13,389 nt of DNA from Proteiniphilum sp. (GTDB lineage Bacteria > Bacteroidota > Bacteroidia > Bacteroidales > Dysgonomonadaceae): NCBI GenBank assembly GCA_012728465.1, contig JAAYFB010000351.1, positions 1 to 13,389 on the forward strand. The letters run 5' to 3'. Position numbers and translations under genes: made by a program. Within the stretch, counting starts at the first letter, position 1; each line of letters opens with the position of its first letter. This document shows, in pieces, positions 667-12,712 of this stretch. The notes below the pieces were generated by a model. It made no database searches and had not been told where the DNA came from. It saw nothing but the letters and a program-made list of their open reading frames with translations.

Positions 667-732
667 ATGAATTATAATAATATTGATATTCTAGTCCTTT
701 CTTCTCTACTTCTGATTCAAATCGGTGGGTGA
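667..732 (+). CDS. Branched-chain amino acid leader peptide (21 codons), leuL-like
   Basis: An ATG at 667 opens 21 codons ending in TGA at 730-732. Ten of the 21 residues are end products of the operon: five Leu, four Ile and one Val, arranged as IDILVL (residues 6-11) and LLLIQI (14-19). All five Leu codons are CTN (CTA, CTT, CTA, CTT, CTG). The frame sits between a candidate promoter and an intrinsic terminator upstream of leuA, and its stop codon lies inside an RNA segment that can form an antiterminator. This is the plan of ribosome-mediated attenuators such as E. coli leu and ilvGMEDA: a ribosome slowed by scarce Leu-, Ile- or Val-tRNA lets transcription read through. The peptide probably has no function after it is made. 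No strong Shine-Dalgarno is present (AAACAAAGCA precedes ATG), which is normal in this phylum. The role is inferred from composition and position. Confidence 0.8.
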   Translation: MNYNNIDILVLSSLLLIQIGG

Positions 733-788
733 GATTGGCATATCAATATTTAAAGTATAAAATAAAAATAAAGATAACCTTTCTCACC
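679..788 (+). promoter_or_regulatory. Protector and antiterminator pairings of the leu operon attenuator
   Basis: Segment 679-689 (AATATTGATAT, inside the leader peptide) pairs perfectly over 11 bp with 740-750 (ATATCAATATT). After a 1x1 mismatch the helix continues with 691-696 against 733-738 (six pairs, two of them G-U). The alternative is the antiterminator: 728-738 (GGTGAGATTGG, containing the leader stop codon) pairs with 778-788 (CCTTTCTCACC) over 7 bp, a 2x2 internal loop and 2 bp. The two structures compete for 733-738. The second also takes the left arm of the terminator at 776-802. Expected behaviour is classical: a stalled ribosome opens the protector and frees the antiterminator, while a ribosome at the stop codon, or no ribosome at all, leaves the terminator to form. 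The pairings are read from the sequence; the mechanism is inferred. Confidence 0.7.
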
Positions 789-812
789 AGTTGAGAGAGG
801 TTTTTCTTTTTT
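776..812 (+). terminator. Intrinsic terminator (attenuator) upstream of leuA
   Basis: The left arm AACCTTTCTC (776-785) pairs with GAGAGAGGTT (793-802) over 10 bp with a single G-U, and A786-T792 can add an eleventh pair. It is followed directly by a U-tract (801-812, twelve bases with one C). It lies after the leader peptide stop and 26 bases before the leuA ATG, so it would stop transcription before any structural gene unless the antiterminator forms. No other gene ends here that it could serve, which supports an attenuator role. Confidence 0.85.
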
Positions 813-2393: not shown

Positions 2394-3815
2394 ATGAGCA
2401 CAATTGAAAATATATCGCAAAATAATCAAAAAGGGAGAACCCTTTTTGATAAAGTATGGGATGCACACGTAGTAGCAACTGTAGAGGATGGACCTACTCA
2501 ATTATATATCGATAGGCACTTATGTCATGAAGTTACTAGTCCTCAGGCTTTCGCTGGATTGAGAGAGAGAGGAATAAAGGTGTTTCGTCCTAATCAAACA
2601 ATCTTAACAGCCGACCATAATATACCAACTATGGGCCAAGATAAGCCAATAAGAGATGAAGTGTCGCGTTTTCAAGTAGATACTCTTGCTAGAAATGCAA
2701 AAGATTTTGGCTTGACATACTATGGCTTGAAGAATACGAAGAATGGTATTGTTCACGTTATTGGTCCTGAGAATGGATACACTCAGCCAGGTATGACTAT
2801 TGTGTGTGGTGATAGCCACACATCTACTCATGGAGCTTTCGGAGCTATCGCATTTGGTATTGGCACAAGTGAAGTGGAAATGGTATTATCTTCGCAATGC
2901 GTGTTACAAACTCGCCCAAAGACAATGCGTATTAACTTTGAGGGTAAGCTTAATGAAGGCGTAAGCTCAAAAGATATGGCTCTTTACATGATTTGGAAGT
3001 TAACTATGGGTGGTGCAACTGGATATTTTGTAGAATATGCAGGTGAGGCTATCCGCAACCTATCTATGGAGGAGCGAATGACGCTTTGTAATCTAAGTAT
3101 TGAGATGGGTGCTCGAGGGGGATTGATTGCTCCTGATGATACTACATTTAATTATTTGAAAGATAGAGAATTTGCTCCTAAAGGCGAAAAGTGGGATGAG
3201 GCTCTTGCTTATTGGAAAACACTGAAATCTGACGATGAAGCAGCGTTTGATAAGGAAATCACCTTTGATGCATCCGAGATTAAGCAAATGATAACATATG
3301 GAACAAACCCAGGTATGGGGATGCCCATTGATGATACAATTCCAACTCTTGAAGAAATTGAGCCGTCGGGTAAAATATCTTTCGAAAAGTCACTTAACTA
3401 TATGGGATTTAAAGCTGGAGAAAAATTGGAAGGTAAGTCTATAGACTATGTTTTCTTGGGTAGTTGCACTAATGGAAGGATTGAGGACTTTAGAATTTTT
3501 ACTAACTACATTAAAGGCAAGAAAAAGGCCAACAATGTAACTGCTTGGTTGGTGCCAGGTAGTTGGCAAGTACGTAAGCAAATTAAAGAAGAAGGATTAG
3601 ACAAAGTGTTGGAAGACGCAGGATTTGAATTGAGAGAGCCAGGATGTTCTGCTTGTTTGGCAATGAATGATGACAAAGTGCCAGCAGGTATGTATGCTGT
3701 GTCCACTTCTAATAGAAACTTTGAGGGACGACAAGGGCAGGGTGCTCGTACGATATTGGCTAGTCCACTAGTTGCCGCAGCTGCCGCTGTTAATGGTAAA
3801 ATCACAATTCCCTGA
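2394..3815 (+). CDS. leuC: 3-isopropylmalate dehydratase large subunit
   Basis: Together with LeuD this subunit isomerises 2-isopropylmalate to 3-isopropylmalate through dehydration and rehydration. It belongs to the aconitase family and holds a [4Fe-4S] cluster. The three cluster cysteines are visible as GSCTNGR (C358) and CSAC (C418, C421). The aconitase-type motif [13 protein letters not shown] starts near residue 139. The 473 residues match the bacterial-type LeuC (about 465-475). The ATG at 2394 is chosen because the conserved start of the family ([12 protein letters not shown], about residues 16-27) lies just inside. In this operon LeuCD probably also handles citramalate if the second LeuA-like enzyme makes it, as LeuCD does in known citramalate routes. 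The labile cluster fits an anaerobe. A stable hairpin lies in the 79-base gap before leuD. Confidence 0.96.
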
Positions 3816-3894: not shown

Positions 3895-4491
3895 ATGGAG
3901 AAATTTATCACAATAACATCAACATACGTTCCACTTCCTATTGAGAATGTGGATACCGATCAAATTATTCCTGCTCGTTTTCTTAAAGCTACTACACGTG
4001 ATGGCTTTGGCGATAATCTGTTTGCAGATTGGAGATACGATAAAGAAGGAAAGCCTAAGGCAGACTTTATTTTAAATAACTCAACGTATAGCGGTGAAGT
4101 GCTTGTGGCAGGCAAGAACTTTGGTAGTGGAAGTAGCCGTGAGCATGCTGCATGGGCAATTGGTGGATATGGCTTTAAAGTCGTAGTTTCAAGTTTTTTT
4201 GCAGATATATTTCGCAATAATGCACTCAATAATGGTATATTACCAGTAGTGGTAAGTGATAGTTTTTTAGCAGAGTTATTTGAATCATCTAATGTTAATC
4301 CGCAATCTACAGTTACTGTTAATCTAATTGAGCAGACAATTACAAATAACGAAACAGGAAAGAGCGAATCATTTGAAATAAACTCATATAAAAAAGATTG
4401 CTTGCTTAGGGGACTTGATGATATTGATTTTTTATTGTCAAATAAAGATAAGATAGAAGAGTACGAGCGCAATAGACCATACACGTACTAA
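3895..4491 (+). CDS. leuD: 3-isopropylmalate dehydratase small subunit
   Basis: LeuD is the swivelling small subunit that completes the active site of isopropylmalate isomerase with LeuC. Conserved motifs are [16 protein letters not shown] (about residues 16-31) and [15 protein letters not shown] (about 75-89), the latter shaping substrate recognition in the family. The length of 198 residues is standard for bacterial LeuD. The ATG at 3895 follows a T-rich and A-rich stretch with no Shine-Dalgarno motif. The next gene begins 30 bases after the stop. LeuD specificity loops decide between isopropylmalate and citramalate-type substrates, but I cannot tell from the sequence which is preferred here. 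Confidence 0.95.
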
Positions 4492-4521: not shown

Positions 4522-6084
4522 TTGGAGAAATTGAGAACTATAGAGATAATGGATACTACTCTTCGAGATGGCGAGCAGACATCGGGTGTTTCCTTTGCTG
4601 CTCCCGAAAAGCTAAGTGTATTGCGCTTATTGCTCGAAGAACTGAAAGTTGATAGAGTTGAGGTGGCTTCAGCTAGAGTGTCCGAAGGAGAGTTTCATTC
4701 GGTTAAACGTATGACAAAATGGGCAGAAGAGAATGGATATTTAGATCGTATTGAAGTTCTTGGTTTTGTGGATAAAGGCTTATCGCTACAATGGATTAAT
4801 GAGGTTGGTGGCAAGGTCGTAAATTTACTTTGCAAAGGCTCTCTAAAACATTGTAAACATCAGCTTCGAAAGACATCAGAAGAACATATTGAGGATATAA
4901 AAGAGACAATCAGACTTGCCACTAAATTAGGTATTAAGGTTAATATTTATCTTGAAGATTGGTCTAATGGCATGAGGGACTCACGCGATTATGTTTTTCA
5001 AATGGTTGATGGCTTGAAGGATGAACCTATTGTTCGATTTATGCTTCCAGATACATTGGGGATTCTTAATCCAGATGAAACTTTTGAGTTTTGTTCTATA
5101 ATGGTAAAAAAATATCCAGAGCTACATTTTGATTTTCATGCACATAATGATTATGATCTTGCTACAGCAAATGTTTATGAGGCTATAAAATCAGGAATAC
5201 ATGGGATTCATGTTACTATAAATGGACTTGGAGAACGAGCAGGTAATGTGCCTCTGACTAGTGTCGTTGCATTAGTGAATGACCATATGAGTTCAGCAAA
5301 AACAAATATTGATGAATCAAAGCTTTATAATGTAAGTAAGGTTATCGAAATATATTCAGGGATTCGTATCCCCAACAATAAACCTATAATTGGAGATAAT
5401 GTGTTTACTCAAGTTGCAGGAGTGCATGCTGATGGAGATAAGAAAAAGAATCTATACTTTAGTGATTTGATGCCTGAGCGATTTGGACGTTATCGTGAGT
5501 ATGCACTTGGCAAGAATGCGGGTAAATCCAATATTATAAAAAACCTAGAGACTTTAGGTATTGAGCTTGATGAAGAGTCAACGCTGAAGGTTACAAAACG
5601 AATAATAGAGCTTGGAGATAAGAAGGAGCTTGTAAGTCTTGATGAGCTACCATACATCGTTTCAGATGTTTTAAAGAATGGTACAGAAAATAAAGAGATA
5701 GAGATGCTTAATTACTCGATGAGTTTAGCCAATGGGTTGCGACCAACAGCTACAGTTAAGCTCTCAATAAGAGGAGAGGTATTCCAAGAAACTTCAGCTG
5801 GTGGTGGTCAATATCATGCTTTTTCAAAGGCAATGTATAAGATTTATCGAAAACTAAATAAGCCAATCCCTGAACTAATAGACTACGTCGTGGTTATTCC
5901 ACCTGGTGGAAAGACAAATGCTTATGTGCAAACTGTCATTACGTGGAAGTTTGAAGATAAAGTATTTAAAACGCGTGCTTTAGATATCGATCAAACAGTA
6001 GCAGCTATTAATGCAACTATGAAGATGCTTAATATGATAGAAAGTGGAAATATACCAAACTATAAATATATAACAGAGAAATAA
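4522..6084 (+). CDS. Second LeuA-family synthase, probable (R)-citramalate synthase (annotated in relatives as alpha-isopropylmalate/homocitrate synthase)
   Basis: This 520-residue protein has the same fold as LeuA but is clearly divergent. The N-terminal HMGL-like barrel begins [13 protein letters not shown] (metal ligand D11, catalytic R15). The metal-binding HAHND has H206 and H208, and GLGERAGN ends at N242. A LeuA-type regulatory domain spans about 393-510, with GGGQYHAFSKA where LeuA has [11 protein letters not shown]. Possible reactions are acetyl-CoA plus pyruvate to citramalate (first step of a threonine-independent isoleucine route), or isopropylmalate or homocitrate synthesis. Position among leuCD and leuB, and the absence of ilvA nearby, favour citramalate, but this is inference. 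The start is TTG at 4522: an in-frame stop lies at 4504-4506, and the first ATG (4549, residue 10) would remove most of the first barrel strand. An AAAGG lies about 9 bases upstream. It is 25 bases from leuB. Confidence 0.82.
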   Translation: MEKLRTIEIMDTTLRDGEQTSGVSFAAPEKLSVLRLLLEELKVDRVEVASARVSEGEFHSVKRMTKWAEENGYLDRIEVLGFVDKGLSLQWINEVGGKVVNLLCKGSLKHCKHQLRKTSEEHIEDIKETIRLATKLGIKVNIYLEDWSNGMRDSRDYVFQMVDGLKDEPIVRFMLPDTLGILNPDETFEFCSIMVKKYPELHFDFHAHNDYDLATANVYEAIKSGIHGIHVTINGLGERAGNVPLTSVVALVNDHMSSAKTNIDESKLYNVSKVIEIYSGIRIPNNKPIIGDNVFTQVAGVHADGDKKKNLYFSDLMPERFGRYREYALGKNAGKSNIIKNLETLGIELDEESTLKVTKRIIELGDKKELVSLDELPYIVSDVLKNGTENKEIEMLNYSMSLANGLRPTATVKLSIRGEVFQETSAGGGQYHAFSKAMYKIYRKLNKPIPELIDYVVVIPPGGKTNAYVQTVITWKFEDKVFKTRALDIDQTVAAINATMKMLNMIESGNIPNYKYITEK

Positions 6085-6109: not shown

Positions 6110-7180
6110 ATGAAGGAGTTGAATATAGCCGTATTGGCAGGTGATGGCATTGGTCCTGAAATAATGGAGCAAGCTTTGAAAATAACAAAAGCTGTGTGTA
6201 ATAAGTTTGGACATAAGCTAAACTATAAAGAGGGTTTAACCGGTGCAATAGCTATTGATACTGTTGGAGATCCATATCCTTCGTCAACGCACGAACTGTG
6301 TATGAATAGCGATGCAGTGTTGTTTGGTGCAATTGGTCATCCAAAATTTGATAATGACCCGAGTGCAAAGGTTAGACCCGAGCAGGGACTTTTACGCATG
6401 CGTCAAATGTTAGGGCTATATGGAAATATTCGTCCTGTAATGACTTTTCCTTCACTTATTCATAAATCGCCACTTCGTTCAGATATTGTGGAAGGTGCAG
6501 ACTTTATGTGCATACGGGAGTTAACAGGTGGATTATATTTTGGTCGTCCTCAAGGAAGAAGTGAAGATGGCAACACAGCATATGACACTTGTGTCTATAC
6601 TCGTGAGGAGATAGAGAGAATACTTCATCTTGCGTATAAGTTTGCAGGACAAAGAAATAAAAAAGTTACAGTTGTTGATAAAGCAAATGTCCTAGCTACG
6701 TCACGTTTATGGCGGCAAGTAGCACAAGATATTGCACCTCAATATCCAGATGTAGAAACAGAGTATATGTTTGTTGATAATGCTGCGATGCGTATCATTC
6801 AATGGCCAAAGAGTTTTGATGTATTAGTTACAGAAAACCTATTCGGAGATATTCTTACTGATGAGGCATCTGTAATTACTGGTTCATTAGGATTGTTGCC
6901 TTCAGCTTCAGTAGGTATTCACACTTCATTGTTTGAGCCAATTCATGGCTCATACCCACAAGCTGCAGGGAAAAATATAGCTAATCCTATTGCTATGATC
7001 CTGTCGGCAGCTCTAATGTTTGAGTATGCTTTTAAGATGATGGAAGAGGGTGCTCTCATTCGTGAGGCAGTTAATGCAAGCCTTGAGGCAGGAATTGTTA
7101 CAGAGGATATTGCAGATGGCGGTAAGTCTTATTCTACAAGTGAGGTTGGAGAGTGGATTGTAAATTATATTGAAAAATAA
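6110..7180 (+). CDS. leuB: 3-isopropylmalate dehydrogenase
   Basis: LeuB oxidises 3-isopropylmalate with NAD+ and the product loses CO2 to give 2-ketoisocaproate. It is a member of the isocitrate/isopropylmalate dehydrogenase family with a bound divalent metal. Visible motifs are the N-terminal [25 protein letters not shown] with catalytic Y143, [15 protein letters not shown] with catalytic K191, the metal-binding [14 protein letters not shown], and [18 protein letters not shown] near the coenzyme site. The 356 residues are the usual length. In a citramalate route the same enzyme would oxidise 3-methylmalate to 2-ketobutyrate. The ATG at 6110 is followed at once by AAGGAG, which falls inside the coding region and is not a ribosome-binding site for this gene. 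It is the last leu gene; ilvD starts 30 bases later, joining the leu and ilv blocks. Confidence 0.96.
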
Positions 7181-7210: not shown

Positions 7211-9079
7211 ATGAGTAAAGATTTAAATAAAGATAAATTAAACTTAGGTGCTGATGCCTGGAAGTTGCGTAGTGCAACATCTACGCAAGGACGAAGAATG
7301 GCTGGTGCGCGTGCTCTTTGGCGTGCCAATGGTATGACATCCGAGCAGATGGGAAAACCAATAATCGCTATTGTTAATTCATTTACACAGTTTGTTCCTG
7401 GTCACGTTCATCTTCATGAAATAGGACAACTAGTAAAGAAAGAGATTGAAAAACTAGGTTGCTTTGCCGCCGAGTTCAATACTATTGCCGTTGATGATGG
7501 TATAGCAATGGGACACGATGGAATGTTGTACTCACTTCCATCTCGAGATCTTATTGCAGACTCGGTAGAGTATATGGTGAATGCACATAAAGCGGATGCT
7601 ATGGTATGTATTAGCAACTGCGATAAAATAACTCCTGGGATGCAAATGGCAGCTATGCGATTAAATATACCTGCAATATTTGTATCAGGAGGACCAATGG
7701 AAGCCGGTAATTTAGATGGAGAGCAAGTTGACTTAATAAATGCTATGATAGAGTCGGCTGACGAAAATGTTTCAGACGAACGCATTGAGCAGTTAGAAGT
7801 GTCTGCTTGTCCTACTTGTGGTTCTTGCTCAGGTATGTTTACGGCTAACTCTATGAACTGCTTAAACGAAGCAATTGGTCTCGCATTACCTGGAAATGGT
7901 ACAATCGTTGCAACTCATGCTAATAGAAAGGATTTATTCATAAAGGCTGCACACCAAATTGTGGAAAATGCTAAACGTTACTATTTTCAAGATGATGACA
8001 CTGTGCTTCCACGTAGCATTGCTACACGTCAAGCATTTATGAATGCTATGACACTAGATATTGCTATGGGTGGATCAACAAATACAATATTGCACATTTT
8101 GGCTATTGCAAATGAAGGGGGAGTTGATTTCACTATGGATGACATGGATGCTCTTTCACGTAAAGTGCCATGTGTATGCAAGGTAGCCCCTAATTCTCAA
8201 AAATATCATATCCAAGATGTAAACCGTGCAGGTGGAATATTAGGAATAATAAATGAATTAGCAAAAGGTGGACTAATAGACACAGCTGTTTATCGGGCCG
8301 ATGGCTTAACATTAGCAGAAGCTCTTGCTAAATATGACGTTACGGTTGATGCTCCATCTGTCGAAGCAATAAATATATATTCTTCAGCTCCTGGAAATAA
8401 GAGAAATATAGTGATGGCATCACAAAATACTTTGTATAAAGAGTTAGATACTGATCGTGTAAATGGATGTATCCGTAGTTTGAATCATGCTTACACTAAG
8501 GATGGGGGACTTGCTATTCTTAAAGGAAATATAGCTGAGAATGGATGTGTAGTGAAGACTGCTGGCGTTGACGAAAGCATATGGAAATTTACTGGTCGTG
8601 CTAAAGTGTACCACTCCCAAGATGCAGCATGCGATGCTATATTGAAAAATGAAGTAGTAGCAGGTGATGTAGTGGTTATTGCTTACGAAGGACCAAAAGG
8701 TGGACCAGGCATGCAAGAAATGCTTTATCCTACATCGTATATCAAAGCAAGACATCTTGGTATAGAATGTGCACTAATTACAGATGGTCGTTTCTCAGGA
8801 GGTACATCAGGTTTGTCTATAGGACATGTTTCGCCCGAAGCAGCAGCAGGGGGCAACATAGCTTTAATACGTAATAATGACTCGATTGATATTGATATTC
8901 CCAATCGTAGTATTAACTTGATGATAAGTGATGAGGAGATGGCAAAACGTAGAAAAGAGGAAGAAGCAAAAGGCGATAAATCGTTTACTCCAAATAGAGA
9001 TAGACAAGTTTCAAAAGCCTTACGCACTTACGCCGCATTTGTTAGTTCGGCAGATAAAGGGGCAGTAAGATTAATATAA
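7211..9079 (+). CDS. ilvD: Dihydroxy-acid dehydratase, E. coli-like [4Fe-4S] type
   Basis: IlvD dehydrates 2,3-dihydroxy-isovalerate and 2,3-dihydroxy-3-methylvalerate to the keto acids of valine and isoleucine. It belongs to the IlvD/Edd family and is 622 residues long (E. coli IlvD has 616). Cluster and metal residues are visible in [10 protein letters not shown] (C137, D138, K139) and [12 protein letters not shown] (C200, C203, C206). The conserved active-site loop GRFSGGTSG lies at about 526-534. Near the N-terminus the protein has [14 protein letters not shown], where the [2Fe-2S] plant and mycobacterial type has a cysteine. This places it with the oxygen-sensitive E. coli-type enzyme, inferred from the motif. 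The ATG at 7211 is preceded by a weak hairpin (CTGAA/TTCAG, 7185-7199). ilvB follows after 81 bases. Confidence 0.96.
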
Positions 9080-9160: not shown

Positions 9161-10885
9161 ATGAAAGAGGAACAAAGTAATTCAATAGTTTCTGGTAGCG
9201 AGGCACTTATTCGGTCGCTAGTAGCAGAGGGAGTTGATACAATGTTTGGGTATCCTGGGGGGGCTATTATGCCGGTTTTTGATGCCTTGTATGATCATAG
9301 GGACAAAGTAAAACATGTTTTGGTACGTCACGAGCAGGCAGCCGTTCATGCAGCTCAAGGATATGCACGTGTATCGCAAAAAGTAGGGGTTGCATTAGTA
9401 ACTTCTGGCCCAGGAGCTACCAATACCATCACAGGATTGACGGATGCTATGATGGATAGTACCCCACTTGTAGTAATTTCGGGTCAGGTTGCATCTAGTC
9501 TTTTAGGTTCTGATGCATTTCAGGAGGCTGATGTTATTGGTATTACTCAACCAGTAACGAAATGGGCTTATCAGGTTCGACGTGTTGAGGATATTCCATG
9601 GGCTATATCTCGTGCGTTTTATATTGCTCGTTCTGGTCGTCCAGGTCCTGTAGTTATTGATATCGCAAAAGATGCACAAGTTAATAAGTGTGAGTTTAAA
9701 TATGAGAAGACAACTTTTCTTCGTAGCTATTATCCTGTGCCTCATCCCGATAAAGAAAAAATTGCGGAGGCTGCAAAGATAATAAATGAAGCAAAGAGGC
9801 CCTTTGCTCTTGTAGGGCAGGGTGTTGTTCTTGGAAAAGCAGAGACTGAATTAAAGTTGTTCTTAGAAAAGAGCGGAATTCCTTTCGCTTCGACTTTACT
9901 TGGATTATCTGCTATGAATAGTGATCATCCATTAAATACAGGAATGTTAGGAATGCATGGCAATATTGGTCCTAACATTAATACTAATAGTTGTGATGTG
10001 TTGATAGCTATTGGCATGCGTTTCGATGATAGGGTTACAGGCAACCTTAACTCGTATGCTAAACAGGCAAAAATCATTCATTTTGATATTGACCCTGGAG
10101 AAATTGATAAAAATGTAAAGACTACTGTCAAGGTACTTGGTAATGCAAAAACTACATTGTCAATGATTACTGAGCTTATAAATTCGAATAATCATAATGA
10201 TTGGTTGAATAAGTTTCGAGAATATGACAAAATTGAGTATGATAAAGTAATAAAGCAAGAGCTTTTTCCTGAAAATGGAGGGCAAATTAAAATGGGGGAG
10301 GTAGTCCATAAGGTTACTGAGGCTACCGGAAATAAAGCAATCTGTGTGAATGATGTGGGACAACATCAAATGATTAGCTCACGATACTTTAAGTTTACAC
10401 AATCTCGTAGTCTTGTAACATCGGGTGGGTTAGGAACAATGGGCTTTGGCCTTCCTGCAGCAATTGGTGCTAAGTATGGTGCACCCGACAGAACAGTTTG
10501 TGTGTTTGTGGGTGATGGAGGTTTACAAATGACAATGCATGAGTTTGGGACTATTCTTGAAACAGGTGTTGATGTGAAAATTATCCTTTTAAATAATAAT
10601 TATTTAGGGATGGTGCGTCAATGGCAAGAGCTATTCTTTGAAGAGAGGTATTCCGAGACTCATTTGAAGAATCCTGACTTCATTAAGGTGGCCGATGCAT
10701 ACAATATTGCTGGGCGAATAGTAACTGAGCGTGCTGAGCTTGATGATGCAATCCAAGAGATGCTTAACCATAAGGGTAGTTTTTTGCTTGAAGTTGTTGT
10801 GGAAACAAAAGGCATGGTGTATCCAATGGTTCCTGCTGGTGGCAGTGTAACAGATGTGATGGTAGGAAAAGGAGAGAAAGTTTGA
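9161..10885 (+). CDS. ilvB: Acetohydroxyacid (acetolactate) synthase, large catalytic subunit
   Basis: This ThDP- and FAD-dependent enzyme joins two pyruvates to acetolactate (valine and leucine), or pyruvate with 2-ketobutyrate to acetohydroxybutyrate (isoleucine). The N-terminal ThDP domain carries FGYPGGAIMPVFDALY and RHEQAAVHAAQGYAR, in which E58 is the conserved cofactor-activating glutamate. FQEADVIGITQPVTKWAYQV follows at about 126-145. The middle domain has PFALVGQGVVLG. The C-terminal ThDP motif runs from GDGG (451-454) to NNNYLGM (478-484). The tryptophan in MVRQWQ (W488) corresponds to the residue that in E. coli AHAS II favours 2-ketobutyrate, so isoleucine formation is supported. 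The 574 residues are normal. The biosynthetic assignment, rather than catabolic acetolactate synthase, is supported by the small-subunit gene 60 bases downstream. Confidence 0.96.
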   Translation: MKEEQSNSIVSGSEALIRSLVAEGVDTMFGYPGGAIMPVFDALYDHRDKVKHVLVRHEQAAVHAAQGYARVSQKVGVALVTSGPGATNTITGLTDAMMDSTPLVVISGQVASSLLGSDAFQEADVIGITQPVTKWAYQVRRVEDIPWAISRAFYIARSGRPGPVVIDIAKDAQVNKCEFKYEKTTFLRSYYPVPHPDKEKIAEAAKIINEAKRPFALVGQGVVLGKAETELKLFLEKSGIPFASTLLGLSAMNSDHPLNTGMLGMHGNIGPNINTNSCDVLIAIGMRFDDRVTGNLNSYAKQAKIIHFDIDPGEIDKNVKTTVKVLGNAKTTLSMITELINSNNHNDWLNKFREYDKIEYDKVIKQELFPENGGQIKMGEVVHKVTEATGNKAICVNDVGQHQMISSRYFKFTQSRSLVTSGGLGTMGFGLPAAIGAKYGAPDRTVCVFVGDGGLQMTMHEFGTILETGVDVKIILLNNNYLGMVRQWQELFFEERYSETHLKNPDFIKVADAYNIAGRIVTERAELDDAIQEMLNHKGSFLLEVVVETKGMVYPMVPAGGSVTDVMVGKGEKV

Positions 10886-10945: not shown

Positions 10946-11506
10946 ATGAGTAACAAAACATTATATACAATAACCATTTTCTCTGAAAATGCAGTTGGTG
11001 TTCTTAATCAAATTACAACTATCTTTACCCGCAGACAATTAAATATAGAAACCCTCTCTGTTTCACCATCTGCATTAGAAGGAATACATAAGTTTACAAT
11101 TACGACTTTTGCCGAAGATGAATCTGTGGCAAAAAAAATAGTTCGTCAAATAGATAAGCGAGTTGATATTTTAAAGGCTTTCTATAACACTGATGATGAT
11201 TTAGTGTATCAAGAGCTTGCTCTTTATAAGTTGTCGACAGAGAAAGTGATGGAACATGGATCGGTTGAATATTTAATTCGCAAATACAATATACGTGTGT
11301 TGGAGGTTACAGAAGATAATATTGTTTTCTTAAAGGCAGGTCATTATGAAGAGACTCAAGGGTTGTTTGAAGAGTTAGCAGAGAAGATAGGAGTACTTCA
11401 GTTCGTTCGTTCGGGGCGTATTGCTATCACCAAATCTAAGATAGAACGATTGAGCGATATCTTAGCAGAAAGAGAAGCTCTAGGTCACTGCGAGCAACAA
11501 TTATAA
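10946..11506 (+). CDS. ilvN: Acetohydroxyacid synthase, small regulatory subunit
   Basis: This subunit stimulates the catalytic subunit and gives feedback inhibition, usually by valine. An ACT domain covers about residues 5-76, with NAVGVLNQITTIFTRRQLNI; G18 is the conserved glycine at the amino-acid binding site. A C-terminal acetolactate-synthase small-subunit domain follows (about 95-170). The 186 residues exceed the 163 of E. coli IlvH and the 96 of E. coli IlvN, the latter lacking the C-terminal domain. ilvH is an equally usable name. The ATG at 10946 lies in A-rich sequence without a Shine-Dalgarno motif. Immediately upstream is ilvB. In the 88-base gap to ilvC there are two small hairpins. 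Confidence 0.94.
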   Translation: MSNKTLYTITIFSENAVGVLNQITTIFTRRQLNIETLSVSPSALEGIHKFTITTFAEDESVAKKIVRQIDKRVDILKAFYNTDDDLVYQELALYKLSTEKVMEHGSVEYLIRKYNIRVLEVTEDNIVFLKAGHYEETQGLFEELAEKIGVLQFVRSGRIAITKSKIERLSDILAEREALGHCEQQL

Positions 11507-11594: not shown

Positions 11595-12641
11595 ATGGCA
11601 AAAATGAATTTTGGCGGTGTGGAAGAAAATGTAGTTACCCGCAAGGAATATCCATTGAGCAAAGCTCAGGAAATACTAAAAGATGAAACTGTTGCAGTAA
11701 TTGGTTACGGAGTTCAAGGCCCAGGCCAATCTCTTAACCTTCGCGATAATGGAATTAATGTAATAATCGGACAACGTAAAGACAGCCCTACTTGGGACAA
11801 AGCTATTGCTGATGGATGGGTGCCAGGCGAAACTCTTTTTGAAATTGAAGAGGCTTGCGAGCGTGGTACTATTATTCAGTACCTACTTTCAGATGCTGCT
11901 CAAATCAAACTTTGGGATACAGTTAAGAAGCACCTAACTTCAGGAAAAGCTTTATACTTCTCACATGGTTTTGGAATTACATACAAAGAGCGTACAGGAA
12001 TTATTCCTCCTGCTGATATAGATGTTATTCTAGTAGCACCAAAAGGATCGGGTACTAGCCTTCGTCGTATGTTCCTTGAAGGACGTGGATTGAACTCAAG
12101 TTACGCTATCTTCCAAGATGCTACTGGCAAAGCGTTCGATCGTGCAGTTGCTTTAGGAATTGGTGTTGGTTCAGGGTACCTATTCGAAACTGATTTTAAA
12201 CGTGAAGTATTTTCTGATTTAACAGGTGAACGTGGTACTCTTATGGGTGCTATTCAGGGTATTATGTTGGCTCAATACGAAGTGCTTCGTGAAAATGGAC
12301 ACACACCATCTGAAGCATTCAACGAGACTGTTGAGGAGCTTACTCAGTCGCTTATGCCTCTCTTTGCAGAAAACGGAATGGATTGGATGTATGCAAACTG
12401 TTCAACAACTGCACAGCGTGGTGCGCTTGATTGGATGGGACCTTTCCACAAAGCTACTAAACCAGTTTTCGAAGAGTTATATAGAGAAGTTGCTAACGGC
12501 AACGAAGCTCAACGATCAATCGATAGTAACTCACAAGCAGATTATCGTGTGAAACTTGAAGAGGAGCTACGTGAACTTCGTGAAAGTGAAATGTGGCAAA
12601 CTGGTGCTGTGGTTCGTAAACTTAGACCTGAGAATAACTAA
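11595..12641 (+). CDS. ilvC: Ketol-acid reductoisomerase, class I (short form)
   Basis: IlvC performs the Mg2+-dependent alkyl shift and NAD(P)H reduction of acetolactate and acetohydroxybutyrate. The Rossmann motif is GYGVQGPGQ (37-45). The following GQRKDS loop has R61 and S64 placed to hold the 2'-phosphate of NADPH, suggesting but not proving NADPH preference. ALYFSHGFGI contains H124, the conserved active-site histidine. The C-terminal knotted domain (about 190-330) carries FSDLTGERGTLMGAIQG and ENGHTPSEAFNETVEELTQ, whose acidic residues bind Mg2+. The 348 residues fit class I, and the C-terminus WQTGAVVRKLRPENN closely resembles my recollection of Bacteroides IlvC. The ATG at 11595 was preferred to ATG 11604 because the family N-terminus aligns with it. 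Codon choice is richer in C-ending codons than in leuA (Phe TTC 8 of 14 against 3 of 14), as expected for high expression. It is the last gene of the operon. Confidence 0.96.
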   Translation: MAKMNFGGVEENVVTRKEYPLSKAQEILKDETVAVIGYGVQGPGQSLNLRDNGINVIIGQRKDSPTWDKAIADGWVPGETLFEIEEACERGTIIQYLLSDAAQIKLWDTVKKHLTSGKALYFSHGFGITYKERTGIIPPADIDVILVAPKGSGTSLRRMFLEGRGLNSSYAIFQDATGKAFDRAVALGIGVGSGYLFETDFKREVFSDLTGERGTLMGAIQGIMLAQYEVLRENGHTPSEAFNETVEELTQSLMPLFAENGMDWMYANCSTTAQRGALDWMGPFHKATKPVFEELYREVANGNEAQRSIDSNSQADYRVKLEEELRELRESEMWQTGAVVRKLRPENN

Positions 12642-12681: not shown

Positions 12682-12712
12682 AAGGCATTCTCTTTAGGGG
12701 GAGTGCCTTTTT
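12682..12712 (+). terminator. Intrinsic terminator of the leu/ilv operon
   Basis: AAGGCATTCTC (12682-12692) pairs with GGGAGTGCCTT (12699-12709) over 11 bp with two G-U pairs and a six-base loop. A run of five T (12708-12712) follows. It begins 40 bases after the ilvC stop. A small separate hairpin, TACACA/TGTGTA (12662-12676), precedes it. On the opposite strand the stem is followed by only a short T-rich stretch, so it serves the plus strand mainly. Confidence 0.85.

Follow-up and report, generated by a model that had tools for sequence, protein, structure and literature searches.

The window, which is the whole stretch of 13,389 nt that was analysed, carries on its + strand a run of nine genes, leuA-leuCD-cimA-leuB-ilvDBNC. 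A short frame and a set of mutually exclusive RNA helices lie between this run and a gene on the opposite strand. The features are as follows.

3-320, - strand (opposite to leuA): acetate transporter gene
598-628, + strand: promoter-like element of Bacteroidota type (TTTG at 598-601, 19 nt, then TTTCTTTG at 621-628), recognized by eye
667-732, + strand: leader peptide frame MNYNNIDILVLSSLLLIQIGG (ATG at 667, 21 codons, stop codon TGA at 730-732)
679-696, + strand: segment 1, the 5' arm of the protector helix, over leader codons 5-10, from the fold
728-750, + strand: segment 2, comprising the antiterminator 5' arm (728-738, overlapping the stop codon) and the protector 3' arm (733-750)
778-788, + strand: segment 3, the antiterminator 3' arm, of which 778-786 also belongs to the terminator 5' arm
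776-812, + strand: intrinsic terminator (776-786 with 792-802, then a T-rich tract at 803-812)
839-2326, + strand: leuA, 2-isopropylmalate synthase
2394-3815, + strand: leuC
3895-4491, + strand: leuD
4522-6084, + strand: cimA-like gene (best match citramalate synthase CimA, 640.7 bits)
6110-7180, + strand: leuB
7211-9079, + strand: ilvD
9161-10885, + strand: ilvB
10946-11506, + strand: ilvN
11595-12641, + strand: ilvC
12682-12709, + strand: terminator-like hairpin 3' of ilvC, from a pattern scan

The top model for the cimA-like gene is a Leptospira-type citramalate synthase, whose score of 640.7 bits falls below the model cut-off of 950. The hairpin at 12682-12709 is likely the operon end. At the other end, since the acetate transporter gene runs on the opposite strand and the window holds no + strand frame of at least 80 aa upstream of leuA, the terminator at 776-812 has no upstream gene to serve. 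This layout speaks against taking it for the ordinary terminator of an upstream transcript, with a short Ile/Leu/Val-rich frame arising beside it by coincidence in AT-rich DNA. Such a coincidence would draw on the AT-richness of both the region and the Ile, Leu and Val codons, and on a pattern scan for terminators that ran near chance over the window as a whole (10 sites vs. 7.3 expected).

The leader frame has Leu codons at 691, 697, 706, 709 and 712, Ile codons at 682, 688, 715 and 721, and a single Val codon at 694. Direct reading of the sequence thus bears out the initial annotation, which had described a 21-codon frame with five Leu, four Ile and one Val codons, and its coordinates for leader and helices were right when checked by hand. 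A short leader frame rich in codons for the operon's products (5 Leu and 4 Ile of 21) is a mark of the classical ribosome-mediated transcription attenuator. We take the TTTG box of the promoter-like element to be a motif of this promoter type. The downstream box TTTCTTTG agrees with five of the six fixed letters of TAnnTTTG, an element named in the passages of PMC9723704 compared here. A similar promoter-like element, a candidate by sequence, lies within 90 nt 5' of the leader ATG in 95 of the 97 leader loci described below, vs. 115 of 485 shuffles.

Three helices had been proposed for this leader, and each stood up to inspection. The protector helix joins 679-689 to 740-750 by 11 pairs and, past one T-C mismatch, 691-696 to 733-738 by 6 pairs (G-U included). 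The antiterminator has 7 pairs (728-734/782-788) plus 737-738/778-779, and the terminator, which the pattern scan also found, has 11 (776-786/792-802, G-U included) before its T-rich tract. The terminator sits between leader frame and leuA, and the antiterminator excludes it because 778-786 is common to both, as in a classical attenuator. The minimum free energy of 655-820 is -37.7 kcal/mol, vs. a mean of -23.2 (sd 3.3) for 200 dinucleotide shuffles, none of which was as low (z -4.43).

The mechanism that we propose is the following. Transcription would start upstream of 667, and the 21-codon leader would be translated behind RNA polymerase. With charged Leu- and Ile-tRNA ample, the ribosome would reach the stop codon at 730-732 and cover the antiterminator 5' arm, so that the terminator at 776-812 would form and the operon would go unread. 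With Leu or Ile (perhaps Val) short, the ribosome would stall on the control codons, at about codons 6-16, and break the 679-696/733-750 protector helix, leaving 728-738 free to pair with 778-788. That pairing would pre-empt the terminator, and leuA-ilvC would be transcribed. If there were no translation, the protector helix would form and termination would win.

Folding with 33 nt around the stalled ribosome held unpaired agrees with the claim that the helices exclude each other in the order of classical attenuation. In the window, the antiterminator had a probability of 0.99-1.0 for the eight stalls tested within codons 6-16 (transcript ends 790 and 795), vs. 0.00-0.01 when the A site held codon 17, 19, 21 or the stop codon. 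Its ribosome-free value was 0.09-0.11, and the protector helix, as expected of an attenuator, then had 0.86-0.97. Two results count against the model. Merely placing a ribosome at the start codon is enough to free the antiterminator (0.87-0.88). At full length (812) and at equilibrium, seven of the eight stalls within codons 6-16, codon 14 being the exception, still favour the terminator, so the switch must be kinetic, i.e. work by kinetic trapping. The same masking was applied to 95 of the 97 leader loci, two having no recognised arm. The terminator 5' arm was paired upstream at a probability above 0.5 in 89 of the 95 when the stall was placed in the Ile/Leu/Val block; the number fell to 32 when no ribosome was present and to 11 when one stood at the stop codon. 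It stayed at or below 0.5 when stalled in six loci. The stalled value exceeded the stop value by 0.3 in 73 of 95 loci, and exceeded the ribosome-free value by at least 0.3 in only 57. In masked folding, then, with the equilibrium caveat above, ribosome position decides the helix.

Conservation was examined over 108 leuA loci (window included), each with at least 250 nt upstream of leuA. They came from two sources: (i) the best 80 of 353 relatives from named genomes, and (ii) 61 genomes of which 48 had a leuA match, where the matches listed gave 30 loci, one of them the window. Three loci were left out: L001 (the window again), L023 (no gene start) and L039 (130 nt upstream). A leader was scored as an Ile/Leu/Val-rich ATG frame of 14-40 codons with a terminator 10-90 nt after it, within 320 nt before leuA. 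By this measure 97 of the 108 loci (window included) have a leader, vs. 3 of 540 shuffles and none of the 108 reverse strands; the 97 reduce to 90 distinct sequences, since some genomes are present in both sources. Among the 11 loci that failed the script, four have a + strand match to R1, a model built from alignment A1 below (L052, L060, L068 and L082; E 2.5e-6 to 0.018), and the other seven have none. L060, L068 and L082 each contain a readable leader-like peptide, and the match in L052 lies about 440 nt 5' of leuA. None of the nine genes precedes leuA on its strand in any of 96 leader loci; leuC follows leuA in 93 of them, and cimA was seen in 47, the loci being of limited length. A lack of conservation of leader frame and helices among close relatives had been named as grounds for refutation, and the leaders in 97 of 108 loci, with helices kept, did not refute the proposal.

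For covariation, the window and 34 close relatives were aligned as A1 (35 sequences), and 54 of the other 55 distinct sequences as A2 (L105 was left out, the script having taken a wrong frame). Antiterminator cells are paired at 98.7% in A1 and 94.2% in A2; one of nine pairs changed on both sides in A1 and six of nine in A2, the latter matched by 3 of 500 shuffles. For the terminator the paired cells come to 99.7% and 94.1%, and the pairs changed on both sides to 2 of 11 in A1 and 8 of 12 in A2, the latter matched by none of 500 shuffles. By eye, the antiterminator tracks the loop side of the terminator arm from group to group: GGTGAG pairs with CTCACC in close relatives, GGAAGTGAG with CTCACTTCC in Bacteroides-like loci, and GCTCGGAGTGAGAGAGGC with GCCTTTCTTGCTCCGAGC in L054. 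The protector helix is paired in 78.5% of A1 cells vs. 31-44% with its arms slid, though its outermost pairs are mostly broken. Its paired cells and covariation score in A1 are above column shuffles (0/500), and its both-side changes (8 of 17 pairs) are not (182/500).

Over the 97 loci, codon usage differs between the leaders and the leuA genes that follow them. CTA accounts for 40% of Leu codons in leaders vs. 2% in leuA, ATT 84% of Ile codons vs. 35%, and GTC 49% of Val codons vs. 11%; the overall share of Ile, Leu and Val is 41.5% vs. 24.7%. A control codon that is rare would be in line with greater sensitivity, though some of the rare-codon letters may be held by helix pairing. Core codon differences are 299 synonymous vs. 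146 non-synonymous among Bacteroides-like loci; in close relatives they are 72 vs. 112, which counts against the attenuator model. Together with the opposite strand of the upstream gene, the frame and terminator in 97 of 108 loci vs. 3 of 540 shuffles, the covarying antiterminator and the CTA enrichment leave an ordinary terminator beside a chance frame very improbable.

The main reading also has to be weighed against a sensor other than the translating ribosome, with a T-box mechanism, a riboswitch or an RNA-binding protein working through these helices. Switching between antiterminator and terminator is common to such systems, and the CCTTTCTCAC arm (778-787) is strongly conserved, without a change in any of the 35 rows of A1, and might serve as a binding site. 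This arm has two pairing partners, which is enough to explain its invariance without calling on pairing to the 3' end of 16S rRNA. Across its own genome CCTTTCTCAC occurs in 3 places vs. 7 for the backward control, so it is meaningful only in context. No Rfam family, those for T-boxes and riboswitches included, matches the window at E <= 1, nor do the covariance models for the T-box (presumably RF00230) and for Bacteroid-trp (RF01692) at that threshold. Leader codons moreover match the operon that follows (Val before ilvD, His before hisG, Trp before trp, Phe before prephenate dehydratase), and a non-ribosomal sensor, while the least improbable of the alternatives, is hard to credit.

Finally, the leader peptide itself might act, either in trans or by arresting the ribosome in response to free amino acid. 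The block ILVISILLL is kept almost letter for letter in close relatives, and a trans-acting leader peptide, peTrpL, is known elsewhere according to the part of PMC7298713 consulted. The conserved letters, on the other hand, overlap the protector helix, and between genera the peptide varies widely while Ile/Leu content and CTA codons stay. On balance we give an active peptide only a very slight chance.

We therefore read the leader region as a classical ribosome-mediated transcription attenuator of the nine-gene branched-chain operon, with a probability of about 0.93. Computation supplies its anatomy, conservation, covariation, predicted folding order and rare-codon enrichment; from these we infer the start site, the stalling, the termination and the response to amino acids.

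As to what is sensed, the initial annotation had one leader sensing three end products. This is too strong on account of Val, which has one codon in the window and 4.2% of residues across the 97 leuA leaders (Ile 17.9%, Leu 17.6%); in some close relatives (L003, L008, L013) the window's Val codon is replaced by Ile. The near-equal Ile and Leu fit an operon that combines leuABCD with a gene for citramalate synthase. Citramalate synthase together with LeuBCD makes the Ile precursor, which would account for Ile codons in a leuA leader if the cimA-like gene is such an enzyme. Val sensing is the weakest claim, weakly backed by that one Val codon, and Val control is possible in that the joined leu and ilv run has one leader. 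The reading predicts that Leu and Ile supply would switch the whole leu-cimA-ilv operon.

Where ilvD lies apart from leuA, it can have its own leader frame and terminator. Fifteen such leaders were collected (L186-L189, L256-L260, L262, L263, L266, L267, L271 and L272), and 11 of the 15 genes that they precede are 70-81% identical to the window IlvD. Their Val share is 16.4%, about four times the 4.2% of leuA leaders. By eye, the terminator arm contains CCTTTCTCA in 12 of 15 and CCTTTCTC in 14 of 15.

Other amino acid genes gave further leaders. (i) Upstream of hisG, His-rich leaders (e.g. MKVNKLHHHHFHTCNQAS) followed by a terminator-like hairpin were seen in 14 of 15 loci (L241-L253 and L255), about 150-240 nt before the gene. 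(ii) L261 has a Phe/Tyr-rich leader, MAVRFFTYFFFYFYFNR, before a prephenate dehydratase gene (633-1487, - strand). (iii) At RF01692 loci, a leader peptide with WW or WWW and then a terminator was found in 6 of 10, the script having stopped at another frame in the other four.

At E <= 0.01, R1 has a match in 43 of the 61 relatives. Of 46 genomes whose leuA match is strong (E under 1e-100), 37 have, by eye, an R1 match just before leuA, and the nine that have none (G040, G043, G044, G046, G050, G052, G054, G057 and G060) belong to other families of the order. R1 also gives matches at ilvD, trp, phe and his leaders, but the reverse strand of leaders reaches as much as 47.0 bits (E 4.2e-6). We rejected the likeness to trp, phe and his leaders as proof of descent, reverse strands scoring in the same range, and at some R1 places (L268, L269, L270, L274 and L275) no leader is recognisable. 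Given these reverse-strand scores and places without a leader, common descent is plausible for leu and ilv leaders and not settled for trp, phe and his. We suggest tentatively, at somewhat under even odds, one inherited Bacteroidales scaffold with a GTGAG-type antiterminator and a CCTTTCTCA-type arm, placed before leu and ilv operons and possibly also those for phe, trp and his, with control codons rewritten for each operon and a single leader shared where leu and ilv are joined. It would be a modular family of tRNA-charging sensors, of which Rfam holds the trp branch only.

Outside the order, credible leaders were found before ilvD in 7 of 50 loci (L191-L193, L216, L227, L233 and L240; the ambiguous L195, L207, L215 and L232 were not counted) and in L132, L158 and L161 of 60 leuA-centred stretches, L132 and L191 being from the same genome. 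These 60 stretches, covering 9 kb upstream of leuA in more distant genomes, had credible leaders in five loci in all (L125, L126, L132, L158 and L161). About 10 further frame/terminator pairs (e.g. in L126, L128, L140, L147, L151, L153 and L176) were judged to be chance, and the remaining loci outside the order gave no leader by the scripts or were ambiguous. The window IlvD, searched over the class, had a match in 5 of 149 genomes, and IlvD from L132 as query in 54 of 246. In L191-L193, L216, L227, L233, L240, L158 and L161, from families outside the order, the leaders (e.g. MFANIIVVVVVILCTQTV in L240) are Ile/Leu/Val-rich, have a terminator and lie upstream of ilvD or the ilv cluster.

The leader points to an RNA family that has no match in the Rfam search. 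By title and the start of the abstract, in a search that largely covered papers outside subscription, we found no leu/ilv attenuator described in Bacteroidales, and the passages of PMC4833913 and PMC2965389 compared here hold no Bacteroidota leu/ilv leader. The window leader would be an amino acid sensor that is conserved and can be tested directly, in a phylum whose controls of this sort are, as far as the sources compared here go, mostly predicted, and a case of ribosome stalling controlling transcription in bacteria that passages of PMC9723704 say lack Shine-Dalgarno sequences.

The mechanism is classical, and the leader family is conserved in many Bacteroidales and little catalogued. The enterobacterial leu and ilv attenuators leuL and ilvL are classical leader-peptide attenuators. 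The window leader has in common with them a leader with control codons, a protector, an antiterminator and a terminator, and a stop codon placed so that a finishing ribosome blocks the antiterminator; with leuL it also shares the rare CTA as Leu control codon. It differs from both in phylum, in promoter type and in setting one leader before a joined leu-cimA-ilv operon; the likeness is one of anatomy. Branched-chain leader-peptide control outside Proteobacteria is represented, in the parts of PMC1262725 and PMC11857589 compared, by the ilvBNC and leuA attenuators of Actinobacteria, again another phylum. Within Bacteroidota, the initial annotation had considered experimental examples few; some precedents exist. 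Bacteroid-trp RNA, whose table row in PMC2864571 is marked y for RNA and y for cis-regulatory, likewise precedes an amino acid operon in Bacteroidota as a leader RNA; RF01692 is a Trp leader, whereas the window leader, which has no RF01692 match at E <= 1, would sense Leu and Ile. Small ORFs of B. thetaiotaomicron are described in the passages of PMC7366714 as reminiscent of leader peptides. A further precedent is the prediction for Flavobacterium psychrophilum, of the same phylum and another order, in which strong clues are reported by PMC9723704 that operons for amino acid biosynthesis are preceded by leader-peptide attenuators, the operons not being named in the text compared.
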